Source of the DNA: Geothrix limicola
GTDB lineage: Bacteria; Acidobacteriota; Holophagae; Holophagales; Holophagaceae
Assembly (NCBI RefSeq): GCF_030268085.1
Contig: NZ_BSDE01000001.1
Location: forward strand, 372,001 to 436,000
Reading direction: 5' to 3'
Length of the DNA stretch: 64,000 nucleotides
Under the pieces are notes generated by a model that was not told where the DNA came from, made no database searches, and saw only the letters and a list, made by a program, of their open reading frames with translations. The translations under genes and the position numbers were made by a program. Positions within the stretch are counted from its first letter, which is position 1; every line of letters starts with the position of its first letter. Positions 17,878 to 23,584 of this stretch are shown here, piece by piece.

Positions 17878-18576
17878 TCAATTCTTCCGGAAACTCTGAG
17901 AGCGATCGGTGCGCCGCGCCTGGATGAAGCGGTGCACGGATTCCATATCCGTATCCTCCTGGGGCTGGAGCACGACGCCCAGGCGCGTGGGATAGTCCTG
18001 CCCTTCGAGGTAGGTCAGGTGGCGCACCTCGCCGGGGCAGTGCAGGATGGCGCCATCGGGCAGTTCGGCGTCGATGTCGACGGTGGCGTGCAGGTCCACG
18101 ATCAGGGGCTTGTCGAAGGCGAGCCCCACGCCGGTTTCCGTGAGGTTCACCAGGAGGGCGTCCAGCTGCTGGCCTTCGAGGCCCACCCGCACTTTCAGCG
18201 GCGACTGGTCGGGCGCGGCCACGCGCACGTCCCGGCGGCGGTGAAGGCGCGCGGGTTCCTGCGGCCAGGCGAGGCGGAGCAGGGTGGCTCCGGTCTCGTC
18301 GGTGGCCGGCGAGAGCAGGGTCGATTCCAGGGTGAGGACCTCTTCGCCCAGCAGGAGGGTCAAGGTCACGGGCGTGCCGCCGGGGGGCACCGAATCCCGC
18401 ACGTGGAGGCCCGCCAGTTCCAGCACCGCGCCCATGCGGAAGGCCAGGATGTGCAGGTCGCCCAGCAGGCGCGAATTGGGGCCCTGCAGCCGGAGGCTCG
18501 CCACGGCCTTCGTGAGCCGGGCCTGGATGAGGAACTGCTCCAGGACGGAAGCGGATAGTTGCGATGCGTGACCCAT
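17878..18576 (-). CDS. PilZ-domain protein, YcgR-like
   Basis: The 232-residue protein has an N-terminal domain of about 115 residues and then a PilZ domain. The PilZ marks are the RRRDVRV arginine motif (about residues 112-118) and NLTETGVGL, standing in for the D/NxSxxG motif with T for S. PilZ domains bind cyclic di-GMP, so it may adjust motility or surface behaviour. ATG at 18576 has GAAAGG upstream; a TTG at 18594 is an alternative start that would overlap the previous gene. Confidence 0.8.
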   Translation of the reverse strand: MGHASQLSASVLEQFLIQARLTKAVASLRLQGPNSRLLGDLHILAFRMGAVLELAGLHVRDSVPPGGTPVTLTLLLGEEVLTLESTLLSPATDETGATLLRLAWPQEPARLHRRRDVRVAAPDQSPLKVRVGLEGQQLDALLVNLTETGVGLAFDKPLIVDLHATVDIDAELPDGAILHCPGEVRHLTYLEGQDYPTRLGVVLQPQEDTDMESVHRFIQARRTDRSQSFRKN

Positions 18577-18590
18577 GGAGAAACTGCCTT

Positions 18591-19331
18591 TCAAATGCCC
18601 TGGCTCAGTCGATCCGCCAGATTGTGGTGCAGGCCCGCGGCCAGGATGGCCTTGGCCGCGCCCTTGATGTCGTATTCAAGCCGGTGCAGACGGATGCACC
18701 GGCGCTTGGGATCGAAGGTCATGAAGGATACGCGCGGATCCCGGTCCCGGGGCTGGCCCACGGAGCCCGGGTTCACGAGGTATCGGCAGTGGGGCTGGAG
18801 CTGGAACCATTCGCCCGGCTCGAGGCAGATCCAGTTCAGCTGGCCCGCGGATTCATCCAGTTCGAAGCAGCCCGGCAGATGGGTGTGTCCGAAGAAGCAG
18901 AGCTGGCCCTCGAAGGCGTCGAAGGCCTGGCTGATCTCACGCATGTGGAGCAGGTAGGCATCCTCGTCCATGGGCGACCCGTGGGAGATCTGATAGTCCT
19001 CGCCCACCCAGAGGGGCCCCACCGGAAGCTCGGCGAGGAAGCGCCAGTTGTCCTGGCGCAGCCGCTCCCGGGTCCAGTCCGCCGCCTGCCGGGCAGGCAG
19101 GCTGAAGGTGCCGTCAGGCTCCAGCCCGGCGCAGACCTTGTCGTGGTTGCCGCGCACCATGAAGCGGGGCCGCAGCTCGCGCACCTTGTCCAGCATCTGG
19201 TTGGGGTTGGCGCCGTAGCCCACGAGATCGCCCAGCAGCACGAAGCGGTGGATGGCACGGCGGCGCGCGAACCTCAGCACGGCCCTGAGGGCGTGCAAAT
19301 TCGAATGCAGATCGGAAAGGATGAGGTCCAA
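18591..19331 (-). CDS. Calcineurin-like metallophosphoesterase
   Basis: This 246-residue protein has the metallophosphatase motifs: SDLHSNLHAL (D-x-H), GDLVGYGANP (GDxxGxG), RGNHD (GNHD), and the later SHGSP and GHTHLP histidines. These bind two metal ions. Similar proteins cleave phosphodiesters or act as diadenosine/serine-threonine phosphatases. The start appears to be TTG at 19331, because the motif begins immediately (MDLILSDLHSN); the ribosome site is weak. It lies between the PilZ gene and thiE-aroK on the same strand. Confidence 0.87.
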   Translation of the reverse strand: MDLILSDLHSNLHALRAVLRFARRRAIHRFVLLGDLVGYGANPNQMLDKVRELRPRFMVRGNHDKVCAGLEPDGTFSLPARQAADWTRERLRQDNWRFLAELPVGPLWVGEDYQISHGSPMDEDAYLLHMREISQAFDAFEGQLCFFGHTHLPGCFELDESAGQLNWICLEPGEWFQLQPHCRYLVNPGSVGQPRDRDPRVSFMTFDPKRRCIRLHRLEYDIKGAAKAILAAGLHHNLADRLSQGI

Positions 19332-19351: not shown

Positions 19352-20497
19352 CTAGTCTAGCAAGGCCGACACCAGCTCCGCGGAACTGTGACCGAAGGCG
19401 AGCAGCATCGGCGCCTGCGACCAGGCCGCCATCCGGGAGGCGGTACGGGCCATGAAGGCCTCACGGCTCTGGGCCAGGGGGCGGTTGGGATCGCGGCCCG
19501 CGCGTTCCCAGGCGCGGGCCGGCGCTTCGGCGAGCCAGAGGGGTACGAAGCCCGCGGCCCGCACGGCCGCCCGATTGCCGGGCGATTCCCAGGCTCCGCC
19601 GCCCAGGGCCACCACGGCGGGGCGACCCAGGAGCGTGGGCAGGTGGGACGCTTCCAGCGCCCGGAAGGCCGCCTCGCCCGAAGCCGCGAAGATCTCCGCC
19701 ACGGGGCGCCCCTCGCCGTCCTCGATGACGGCGTCCAGATCGTGGAAGGGTAGGGAGAGGGCGAAGGCGAGCTGCCGGCCGAAGGTGGATTTCCCCGCGC
19801 CGCTGCCGCCGATGATGGCGAGGCCCTGACCGCGGGCGAACGGAGGGCGCACGCGCCAGCGCCGGCGCTGGATTTCCCAGCCCAGGGCGGCGGGATCGGC
19901 GGCGCGGTGGATCTCCCCCACCATGGCCAGGGATTCGGCGCCCGCCTCGAAGCAGGCTTCCGCATCGGCGAGACCGAGGCCCCCGATGGCGATGGGCGCG
20001 ATGTCCCGGGCCCGCAGGGCCGTGCAGCCCGCGCGAAGCCCCTCCAGCCCGATGGGCGCGGCGTGATCGGCCTTCGTGGCGGTGCCGCGGAAGGGGCCGA
20101 CACCCGCGTGATCGCAGGCCGTATCCAGGGCTTCGAACTCGCCGGCCTCGTGGGTGGAGGCGCCGATGTGGACCTGTGCGAGGCCCGGCAGACGGCGCGC
20201 CTCGATGGCGGGCAGGTCCTCCTGGCCCAGGTGCAGGCCCCAGGGTGCGAGCCCTTCCCGGGCCGCGAGCATGGCGAGGTCGGCGCGGTCATTGACGCAG
20301 ATGAAGGGCCAGCCGCCGTTGGCGGCGGCTTCCATCAAGGCCTGGCGCAGCTCCGCCCACTGCGTCTGTGTGTCGAGGGGCTTGCCCCGGAACTGGACCA
20401 GCGGAAAACCGGCCTCGCCCAGTCGCCGGATCTGCGCCGACAGCGGTTCTGCGAGCGTGGCATCAGTGATGGGATAGAGGGGCGGCAGGTGGAGCAT
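19352..20497 (-). CDS. Fusion protein: thiamine-phosphate synthase (ThiE) plus shikimate kinase (AroK)
   Basis: Residues 1-205 form a ThiE domain: YPITD, QFRGK, VNDRADLA, GLHLGQEDLP, and GVGPFRGTATK, which binds phosphate and pyrimidine pyrophosphate. After a short basic linker (206-222), residues 224-381 form a shikimate kinase: P-loop GGSGAGKST (230-238), DLDAVIE, GEAAFRALE and VALGGGA. Both sets of catalytic residues look intact. ThiE joins the thiazole and pyrimidine halves of thiamine; AroK phosphorylates shikimate. ATG at 20497 was chosen because the upstream extension has no domain match. aroB lies 4.8 kb away on the other strand. I know of no metabolic link explaining the pairing. Confidence 0.88.
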   Translation of the reverse strand: MLHLPPLYPITDATLAEPLSAQIRRLGEAGFPLVQFRGKPLDTQTQWAELRQALMEAAANGGWPFICVNDRADLAMLAAREGLAPWGLHLGQEDLPAIEARRLPGLAQVHIGASTHEAGEFEALDTACDHAGVGPFRGTATKADHAAPIGLEGLRAGCTALRARDIAPIAIGGLGLADAEACFEAGAESLAMVGEIHRAADPAALGWEIQRRRWRVRPPFARGQGLAIIGGSGAGKSTFGRQLAFALSLPFHDLDAVIEDGEGRPVAEIFAASGEAAFRALEASHLPTLLGRPAVVALGGGAWESPGNRAAVRAAGFVPLWLAEAPARAWERAGRDPNRPLAQSREAFMARTASRMAAWSQAPMLLAFGHSSAELVSALLD

Positions 20498-20751
20498 GAC
20501 CCTAGTCTGCCAGCCTGGCGGAGGTATCCACGATCGCGGAAAGGCCAGAAACGCCCCGAGCCGTTCAAATGGAAGGGGATGGTCCATCAATCTGATGACT
20601 CTTCCACCTTCAAAAGCTTGAATGCCCTTTGAAGTGTTTCACGTCACGCGCTTTCCAGACTGGCGCGAATCATGCGACTGGTGGATGTTTAAGTTCGAGC
20701 GGCCTGAGTCGTTCCAACCTTGTTTACAGTTATTCTCGCTTGAGGTGTTCG

Positions 20752-21366
20752 ATGACCTTCTTCCCCAACTGGCGAAACCTGGGGTACCTCGTCAGCGTCC
20801 TCCTGGTCGCCCTGATGCTTTCCTGCGGTGGGGGTGGGAGCACTCCTCCTCCCCCTCCCGAAGGCAATCTGCGGGTCTACAACGGCGGCAACCTCGCCAT
20901 GTGGAACCTCCATGTCACGCGCAGCGTCAGCTCCACGTGGGGCGTGGACCAGCTCGCTCCCGCCACCTTGTTCCCGGGAGAATCCCTGACCCTGACCGGC
21001 CTGTACCCAGACACCTACGACGTGGAGGCGCGGTTCTCCGACGGCAGCCTCGACAGGGTCTACGATGTGCAGATTCAGGATGGGGTGACCACCGTACTCA
21101 CCATGATGGACACGGGCAATGGCTCGGTGGCCGTGTTCAATAACTCAGGCCTGACCATCACCGGGATCTATCTCACGCTGTCCACCGCCAGCACCTGGGG
21201 TCCCAACCAGGCAGACCAGCCCCTTTACGATCTCCAGACCCTGACCTTGACCGGAGTCTCCCCGGGCACCTACGACCTCAAGGTGGTGTTCTCGAACGGG
21301 AACCTGGCGTACCCCCCGGCCTTCAGCGTGACCTCCGGGGCCGTGACCACCCTCCAAGTGAATTAG
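20752..21366 (+). CDS. Secreted lipoprotein with an internal duplicated beta domain
   Basis: The 204-residue product has a signal peptide ending in a lipobox (LMLS then Cys, near residue 25), a Gly/Pro spacer, and two similar units of about 75 residues. Each unit has a V-Y/F-N opening, STWGxxQ, and a LTLTGxxPxTYDxxxxFSNGx ending with one or two positions changed. It is probably anchored in the outer membrane with two small beta-sandwich domains. ATG at 20752 has GAGG upstream. No known function. The next small secreted gene is nine bases downstream. Confidence 0.75.
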   Translation: MTFFPNWRNLGYLVSVLLVALMLSCGGGGSTPPPPPEGNLRVYNGGNLAMWNLHVTRSVSSTWGVDQLAPATLFPGESLTLTGLYPDTYDVEARFSDGSLDRVYDVQIQDGVTTVLTMMDTGNGSVAVFNNSGLTITGIYLTLSTASTWGPNQADQPLYDLQTLTLTGVSPGTYDLKVVFSNGNLAYPPAFSVTSGAVTTLQVN

Positions 21367-21375
21367 GAGTCCACC

Positions 21376-21636
21376 ATGCGACTGGTTTTGAATGTGGTGC
21401 CCACGCTCCTCCTGCTGGCGGGAAACCTGTCAGCCCTTGCGGTCCAACCCGAGCCTCCGCGGTCTGTCGCCACGCACCGCATTCAGGTCATCCGGCCGGG
21501 CAAAGGCGAGCCTCGAACACGAGAGGCCGTGGCTGCCCGGACGGCTTCCCCGCAGACTCCAACGACCGACGGAGGCATGAGGCGCACTCGCCCTTATCAG
21601 CCCGCCAAGCCCGGCGAAGGCGCACCCAAGGGGTGA
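21376..21636 (+). CDS. Small secreted protein, unknown
   Basis: This 86-residue product has a signal peptide (about residues 1-23, ending LSALA) and a basic, Pro/Arg/Thr-rich mature part with no recognisable fold, likely disordered. TAGGAG lies before its ATG. It is co-directional with the lipoprotein gene and 9 bases away, so they are probably one unit. Confidence 0.6.
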   Translation: MRLVLNVVPTLLLLAGNLSALAVQPEPPRSVATHRIQVIRPGKGEPRTREAVAARTASPQTPTTDGGMRRTRPYQPAKPGEGAPKG

Positions 21637-21667: not shown

Positions 21668-23455
21668 TCAGGCCGCGTCCTCCTCGGCGAACTGCAGGCG
21701 GACGAGCTTGGCGTAGACGCCGTCCTGGGCGATGAGGCTGTCGTGGTTGCCGCGTTCCACGAGCACACCCTGGTCCATCACCCAGATCTCGTCGGCCTCG
21801 CGGATGGTGGAGAGCCGGTGGGCGATGGTGAAGGTGGTGAGGCGGTGGCTCACGCGCTCGATGACGGTCTGGATCTTGGATTCGGTTTCGGAATCGATGT
21901 TGGCCGTGGCCTCGTCCAGCAGCAGCACCGCCGGTTCGAGGTAGAGCATGCGGGCGAAGGCCAGCAGCTGCCGCTCGCCGGCGCTGAGCTTCTGGCCGCG
22001 TTCGCCCACCTGGGTTTCCAGGCCCTCGGGCAGGCGGCCCACCAGATCCTTGAGCTGGCTCTGTTCCAGCACCGAGGCGATGCGGGCCTCATCCAGGGGG
22101 CGGTCCAGCACGATGTTGTCGCGCAGGCTGCCGGAGAAGACGAAGACATCCTGCAGCACCAGGCCGAAGAGGCTGCGCAGGCTGCGGATCTGCAGGTTCC
22201 GCACGTCCACGCCATCCACCGTGATGCGCCCTTCGTTCACATCGTAGAAGCGCATGAGCAGGTTGATGAGGGTGCTCTTGCCGGCGCCCGTATGGCCCAC
22301 CACGGCCACGCGCTTGCCCTTGGGGATCACACCGCTGAGGCCGCGCACCACCTGGCGGCCACCCTCCTCGTAGGCGAAGGTGGCGTCCTCGAAACGGATC
22401 TCGTGCGCGAAGGAAGCCGGCTGGGCCCCGGGGGCCTCGTGGATCTCCTCGCGGTTGTCCAGCAGGCGGAAGATGCGCTCGCTGGAGGCGAGGGCCGTCT
22501 GCATCACGTTGTAGCGCTCGGCCAGTTCGCGGATGGGACGGAAGAAGCGGCTGGACTGCTGGATGAAGGCCAGCAGCAGGCCCCAGGTGATGGCCCCCGC
22601 CTTGAGCTTGAAGCCCGCGTAGAAGATGAGCGCGGCCAGGGTGCCCGAGGTGATGAACTCCACCACGGGGAAGAACACGGCGTAGGCGAAGATGGTGCGC
22701 AGGAAGGCCTGGAAGTAGTCCTCGTTGAGCACGCGGAACTGCCGGTTGCTGCTCGCCTCCTGGGCGTTGATCTGCACCAGGCCCATGCCCGAGATCTGTT
22801 CCTGCAGGAAGGCGTTGATGGAGGCGTAGCGGCGCTGCGTTTCGCGGAAGGCCTCGCCGGCGCGGCGGCGGAAGATCTCGGTGGCCACCAGCAGGAAGGG
22901 CAGGATGCCGAGGGCCACCAGGGCCATGCCGGCGTGGGTCCAGAACATCCAGACGACGATGGCCAGCAGGGACAGCGCGTCGCCCACGATGGCGACGAAG
23001 CCCGAGGCGAACATCTCGTTCAGGTTCTGCACGTCGCTGGTCACGCGGGTCATGAGGCGGCCCACGGGATTGCGGTGGAAGAAGTCCGTGCTGCGTCCCA
23101 TGAGGTGCTCGAAGAGCTGCACCCGCAGGTCGAGCATGGCCTTCTGGCCCACCTTGGCCAGCAGGAAGTAGCGGGCGAAGCTGACGAGGAAGCCCGCCAC
23201 CAGCACGCCGACGAATCCGGCGATGAGCGGCGCGGCGCCCCTCAGGCTACCTTGGCCCATGAAGCGGTTGATGAGGCGCAGCGTCAGCTCGGAGGGCATC
23301 ACCTCGAGGAAGGCGCCCAGCGCCATCAGGGCGAGCAGGGCCAGCAGGGCCACCCACTGGGGGCGGAGGTAGCTCGCCAGGCGCCAGAGCAGCGCGTGGC
23401 GCATGGGGCGCTCGTCCACGCGATCGGGTTGGAAGAAGGCTCCCTGTTCGGACAT
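21668..23455 (-). CDS. ABC exporter, fused membrane and ATPase domains (MsbA/MdlB-like)
   Basis: The 595-residue half-transporter has six helices (about residues 25-330) and a nucleotide-binding domain. The ATPase carries Walker A GHTGAGKSTL, the signature LSAGERQLLAFAR (LSAGE instead of LSGGQ, as in many MdlB/LmrA-type proteins), Walker B VLLLDEATANID and the H-loop IAHRLST. Such proteins act as homo- or heterodimers that export lipids, peptides or drugs. ATG at 23455 has GGGAGA upstream. It converges with the small secreted gene to its left. Confidence 0.9.
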   Translation of the reverse strand: MSEQGAFFQPDRVDERPMRHALLWRLASYLRPQWVALLALLALMALGAFLEVMPSELTLRLINRFMGQGSLRGAAPLIAGFVGVLVAGFLVSFARYFLLAKVGQKAMLDLRVQLFEHLMGRSTDFFHRNPVGRLMTRVTSDVQNLNEMFASGFVAIVGDALSLLAIVVWMFWTHAGMALVALGILPFLLVATEIFRRRAGEAFRETQRRYASINAFLQEQISGMGLVQINAQEASSNRQFRVLNEDYFQAFLRTIFAYAVFFPVVEFITSGTLAALIFYAGFKLKAGAITWGLLLAFIQQSSRFFRPIRELAERYNVMQTALASSERIFRLLDNREEIHEAPGAQPASFAHEIRFEDATFAYEEGGRQVVRGLSGVIPKGKRVAVVGHTGAGKSTLINLLMRFYDVNEGRITVDGVDVRNLQIRSLRSLFGLVLQDVFVFSGSLRDNIVLDRPLDEARIASVLEQSQLKDLVGRLPEGLETQVGERGQKLSAGERQLLAFARMLYLEPAVLLLDEATANIDSETESKIQTVIERVSHRLTTFTIAHRLSTIREADEIWVMDQGVLVERGNHDSLIAQDGVYAKLVRLQFAEEDAA

Positions 23456-23584
23456 GGGGCCATTCTCCCACACTGCGTGGATTATCCCGCGGCTTCTGCG
23501 CAAGTGGCCCAGGATCCGGCGTCAGAACGGGGCCGGGAGTTGCCCGCCGGCCTCATGTAAACTGGAGGATCCCCCGGAGACCTG

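Follow-up and report, generated by a model that had tools for sequence, protein, structure and literature searches.

A ThiE-shikimate kinase fusion in the Holophagaceae, a probable bifunctional enzyme from the joining of adjacent genes

Gene fusions are commonly taken as a sign that two proteins work together. Known fusions of ThiE, the thiamine-phosphate synthase of vitamin B1 synthesis, which forms TMP out of HMP-PP and THZ-P, such as yeast THI6 (ThiE-ThiM), join it to other thiamine enzymes, and those of the shikimate kinase (SK) AroK normally join it to pathway neighbours, as in fungal AROM, in the AroK-AroB proteins of NF010556 and NF010627, and in AroE-AroK; AroD-AroE and AroE-AroK fusions have been reported in a fusion survey (PMC11237513). 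An SK-like domain is likewise found on a non-pathway domain in the BoxR-type HTH-shikimate kinase-like regulators (NF006015). The N-terminal domain of BoxR binds DNA, whereas the protein described here has no DNA-binding domain and its SK catalytic residues are intact.

In the Geothrix limicola gene that is the subject of this study, located in a window by which we mean the whole stretch of 64,000 nucleotides analysed (Table 1), ThiE is joined to a kinase of the shikimate pathway, the route to aromatic amino acids. The partner of the SK is thus a TMP-TENI domain from outside that pathway, rather than another shikimate-pathway enzyme as in fusions of the AroK-AroB, AroE-AroK or AROM type. What makes this two-enzyme fusion notable is that its partners belong to unrelated pathways, a view already taken in the sequence-only reading and supported here. 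That reading also knew of no standard fusion of the two; a literature search of incomplete coverage returned no papers on the pairing, giving no support to the opposite case of an already well-known fusion, and the ThiE-SK fusion is apparently undescribed so far.

Table 1. Position of the fusion gene, its parts and its neighbours in the window
Feature	Position	Strand	Basis and remarks
thiE-aroK fusion gene	19352..20497	-	381 aa, ATG at 20497, stop at 19352, one open frame; full length in 67/77 genomes of the order
ThiE domain, residues 7-196	19910..20479	-	PF02581 E 1.7e-30 and catalytic positions as in B. subtilis ThiE
Interdomain helix, residues 202-216, W207-x-x-Q210-x-x-R213-W214	19850..19894	-	residue conservation and predicted model
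AroK (SK) domain, residues 226-381	19355..19822	-	PF01202 E 9.5e-29 and invariant catalytic positions
Metallophosphoesterase, downstream of the fusion	18591..19331	-	PF12850; in other members of the phylum it adjoins thiE, aroK or both
PilZ-domain protein, third gene of a probable operon	17878..18594	-	PF07238; synteny in most Holophagaceae
MsbA-like ABC exporter, upstream neighbour	21668..23503	-	same strand as the fusion in most relatives

The N-terminal half is like B. subtilis ThiE (2TPS/1G4T) in fold and catalytic residues. PF02581 (TMP-TENI) aligns over its full profile (positions 1-180 of 180; 106 bits against a cut-off of 27), and in an alignment to solved structures and relatives R37, K39, N69, D70, D94, S114 and K142 correspond to R59, K61, N92, D93, D112, S130 and K159 of the B. 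subtilis enzyme. The C-terminal half shares with M. tuberculosis AroK (MtSK; 1L4U/2IYQ) its fold, Walker A, shikimate-binding arginines and GGG motif. Here PF01202 (SKI) covers residues 233-347 (profile positions 2-116 of 159; 101 bits, cut-off 22.1), and although this alignment stops short of the last third of the SK, the invariant R355, at the position of MtSK R136, and the predicted fold are nonetheless present. Among the aligned fused proteins of the family, K236, D255, R279, G299, G301, R339 and R355 are invariant (58/58). In MtSK numbering, K15, D34, R58, G79, G81, R117 and R136 are found in all 58 and D32 in 57; Ala stands in place of G80 in 11. The roles of the aligned residues we take to be those established for both enzymes. 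The proposal of a whole ThiE domain followed by an SK in a single frame of 381 residues, with the key motifs of each, is thus borne out by Pfam and by residue alignment. With Foldseek, each half matches structures of its own enzyme: the ThiE half 1XI3/2TPS, the SK half MtSK structures with a TM-score by target of up to 0.85; the top match is the THI6 structure 3NL6, via the ThiE half of THI6. Both halves are divergent, lying above the Pfam cut-offs and below the stricter NCBI equivalog cut-offs. The fused ThiE reaches 103.3 bits with the NCBIfam ThiE equivalog TIGR00693 (cut-off 145.1) and the SK 95.8 bits with its best AroK equivalog model, NF010552 (cut-off 186). As a divergent member below the equivalog score, the first domain takes the name ThiE from its residues and genome context.

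Does the cell rely on this gene? ThiC and chorismate synthase (AroC) are found in the Geothrix genome, and DHQ synthase (AroB) lies inside the window; both pathways appear to exist in Geothrix, and with ThiC and chorismate synthase present they therefore need the ThiE and AroK steps. The fused SK is the only PF01202 match in the Geothrix genome and in 27 of the 28 family genomes tested, the remaining genome (G092) having one extra. Apart from the fusion, the only TMP-TENI match in the Geothrix genome is a weak one, a 185-aa frame of 36.6 bits without the NDR, HLGQ and TxTK motifs, and the fused ThiE is the sole one with intact motifs there. For both steps, this genome offers no good candidate other than the fusion gene. 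A motif-less TMP-TENI-like protein is encoded beside an aldo/keto-reductase-like frame at G000 contig C6:97911-98360 (L002:1450-2007), and comparable weak matches occur in most Holophagaceae.

In a protein search of 77 genomes sampled from the order, 67 have the fused frame at full length and free of internal stops; eight of the other ten yield partial matches, mostly on short draft contigs, and two drafts yield none. This order-wide sample spans 11 genera, among them a genus whose genomes measure 0.9-1.2 Mb, with an identity of about 40-42%; Geothrix fuzhouensis SG12 and other Holophagaceae are among the named relatives, which places the window in this family of soil and sediment bacteria. 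In that strongly reduced genus (L055, L056 and L057) the fusion, both active sites and ThiC are retained.

The segment between the two domains had been described as a short and basic linker. Its basic character holds; it is no loose linker, however, being a conserved predicted helix in which W207 and Q210 are invariant among the family fusions (58/58), with R213 kept in 56 and W214 in 55 of the 58. AlphaFold predicts the whole chain with a pLDDT of 93 and a pTM of 0.91, and in the model helix 202-216 runs into the first SK strand, which suggests that the junction is a fixed interface instead of a loose tether. The Acidobacteriota fusions from outside the family are without the W207/Q210 motif. 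An internal start that would release a free SK finds no support, since the in-frame ATG, GTG or TTG codons that 39 of the 58 genes have in their linker do not share a conserved position.

Around the fusion, the Holophagaceae for the most part share the order aroB / M28 peptidase / ABC exporter / fusion / metallophosphoesterase / PilZ. Between ABC exporter and fusion, the window carries two plus-strand frames (20629-21636) of 245 and 86 aa, the longer of which has no Pfam match; this segment looks like a local insertion, because the gap between the two genes measures only tens of bases in several close relatives. A search of 396 Acidobacteriota genomes returned three further fusions outside the family (G340, G265 and G193). 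In another locus, L107 (G158), thiE and aroK are unfused neighbours that share a frame and have one TGA between them; aroK has a separate GTG start and a GGGAG site resembling a ribosome-binding site. The same metallophosphoesterase gene as in the window lies downstream in G340, G265, G193 and G158, and it adjoins thiE in L139 and aroK in L138. An ancestral thiE-aroK-metallophosphoesterase cluster and the loss of one stop codon are the simplest account. Phylogenetic trees set the Holophagaceae fusions apart from the other Acidobacteriota fusions; a single clade for all fusions is weakly rejected by the SK (p-AU 0.029) and not rejected by ThiE (p-AU 0.173), so that there was one joining or possibly two separate ones in the phylum. 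At E 1e-28 and with no positive control in either phylum, no fusion turned up in the phylum to which a Limnohabitans locus belongs (398 genomes) or in that of a Nitrospiraceae locus (395 genomes); no place on plasmids covered at least 80% of it. Two other Acidobacteriota families, one of them a sister family within the class, have the SK fused behind an AroE (shikimate dehydrogenase) domain instead (L122:4636-5958, L112:3736-5298, and probably L124 and L131), and it appears that in Acidobacteriota the SK is a module prone to fusion.

We consider it probable that the fusion is a bifunctional housekeeping enzyme with two independent active sites, which arose by stop-codon loss in a thiE-aroK cluster. 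Judged by their residues, the N-terminal half would make thiamine monophosphate and the C-terminal half would phosphorylate shikimate, the two sites probably working independently on a rigid two-domain body with a conserved helix. The stop codon between the adjacent, in-frame thiE and aroK of the ancestral thiE-aroK-metallophosphoesterase cluster would have been lost, and the fusion would then have become fixed in the Holophagaceae by descent, since the cell was left with no other SK and, as a rule, no other ThiE. We infer that the joining had no selective reason. The sequence-only reading had left this point between shared regulation and simple gene joining; the one-stop arrangement of L107 favours the joining of adjacent genes. 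A search for TPP riboswitches in the window and in ten loci, five ThiC genes among those, returned none; with no such element near the fusion gene, shared regulation by it is rejected.

Is the ThiE site in use? The kept frame alone is no evidence of ThiE function, because the SK sits downstream. The catalytic positions of ThiE are intact in 56 of the 58 family fusions, and the two exceptions, L054 and L052, have lost most of these residues. L054 belongs to a single-contig genome (G074) with two other TMP-TENI genes that carry the motifs; in the genome of L052 (G095), an 89% complete draft, neither ThiC nor a second TMP-TENI gene was found. Decay of the ThiE site is thus confined to cells that have no need of it, an indication that the other lineages do use theirs. 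Several genera show a pattern not expected from simple redundancy: G073, G083, G086, G088, G089, G092 and G093 have a second canonical ThiE, yet keep the catalytic residues of the fused one. A second canonical ThiE of separate ancestry, forming its own clade, is found in three genera (L066-L073, from G083, G085, G088, G089, G092, G093, G073 and G074), in which nearly all fused ThiE sites are intact despite its presence. These intact sites, the divergence of both halves and a linker helix conserved beyond the need of a passive tether count against the reading as a bifunctional enzyme with independent sites.

The two lineages with a lost site also bear on a further role of the ThiE fold, which besides catalysis might be a scaffold that the SK needs for folding or assembly, the domain hence being kept after its catalytic residues go. 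Both L054 and L052 still have near-full ThiE length, the helix with W207, Q210 and R213-W214, and an intact SK. The ThiE end branch of L054 measures 1.13, against 0.089 for L034 of the same genus (SK 0.29 against 0.17), and in a simple NG86 estimate the pairwise dN/dS of L054 and L034 is still about 0.5 for ThiE, with 0.33 for the SK. The confident prediction of the domain arrangement also fits such a role. However, there are two cases only; stops or frameshifts in a dead upstream domain would kill the SK, an in-frame deletion may simply not have occurred yet, and SKs that are unfused elsewhere need no ThiE. A scaffold role of ThiE is plausible and compatible with bifunctionality, while as the explanation of the fusion we hold it to be unlikely. 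Somewhat more doubtful still is the stronger form, in which the ThiE fold is obligatory for SK function and turns into a dead scaffold in some lineages, possibly with an allosteric link between thiamine and aromatics.

A coupling of the two pathways, in which the ThiE site, through its ligands or its state, would regulate the SK or the reverse, and aromatic synthesis would be linked to thiamine supply, is improbable. The TPP-dependent transketolase makes erythrose 4-phosphate, a precursor of the shikimate pathway, and thereby offers a link between TPP and that pathway; retention throughout the family, the rigidity of the predicted arrangement, the invariant interdomain helix and the possibility of two separate joinings in the phylum also speak for coupling. 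It would be dispensable, however, in the two lineages in which the ThiE site is gone while the SK stays, and no TPP riboswitch is near the gene. Finally, while L107 does carry both genes one stop codon apart, a sequencing or assembly artefact, frameshift or read error joining neighbours, the doubt raised with the sequence-only reading, is ruled out to the point of near certainty, because the same fused frame is conserved across 11 genera, in 67 genomes of the order that include complete single-contig ones.

The probable bifunctional enzyme of the Holophagaceae, with its family-wide fusion of enzymes from unrelated pathways, a relative that is one stop codon away and two lineages that have lost one site, makes a testable case of how an accidental fusion is fixed and of whether a scaffold can evolve from a catalytic domain. 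For annotation, a single gene with both functions may receive one name only. For pathway reconstruction in Geothrix and its relatives, disruption of the fusion gene should, judging from the gene content, block thiamine and aromatic synthesis alike.
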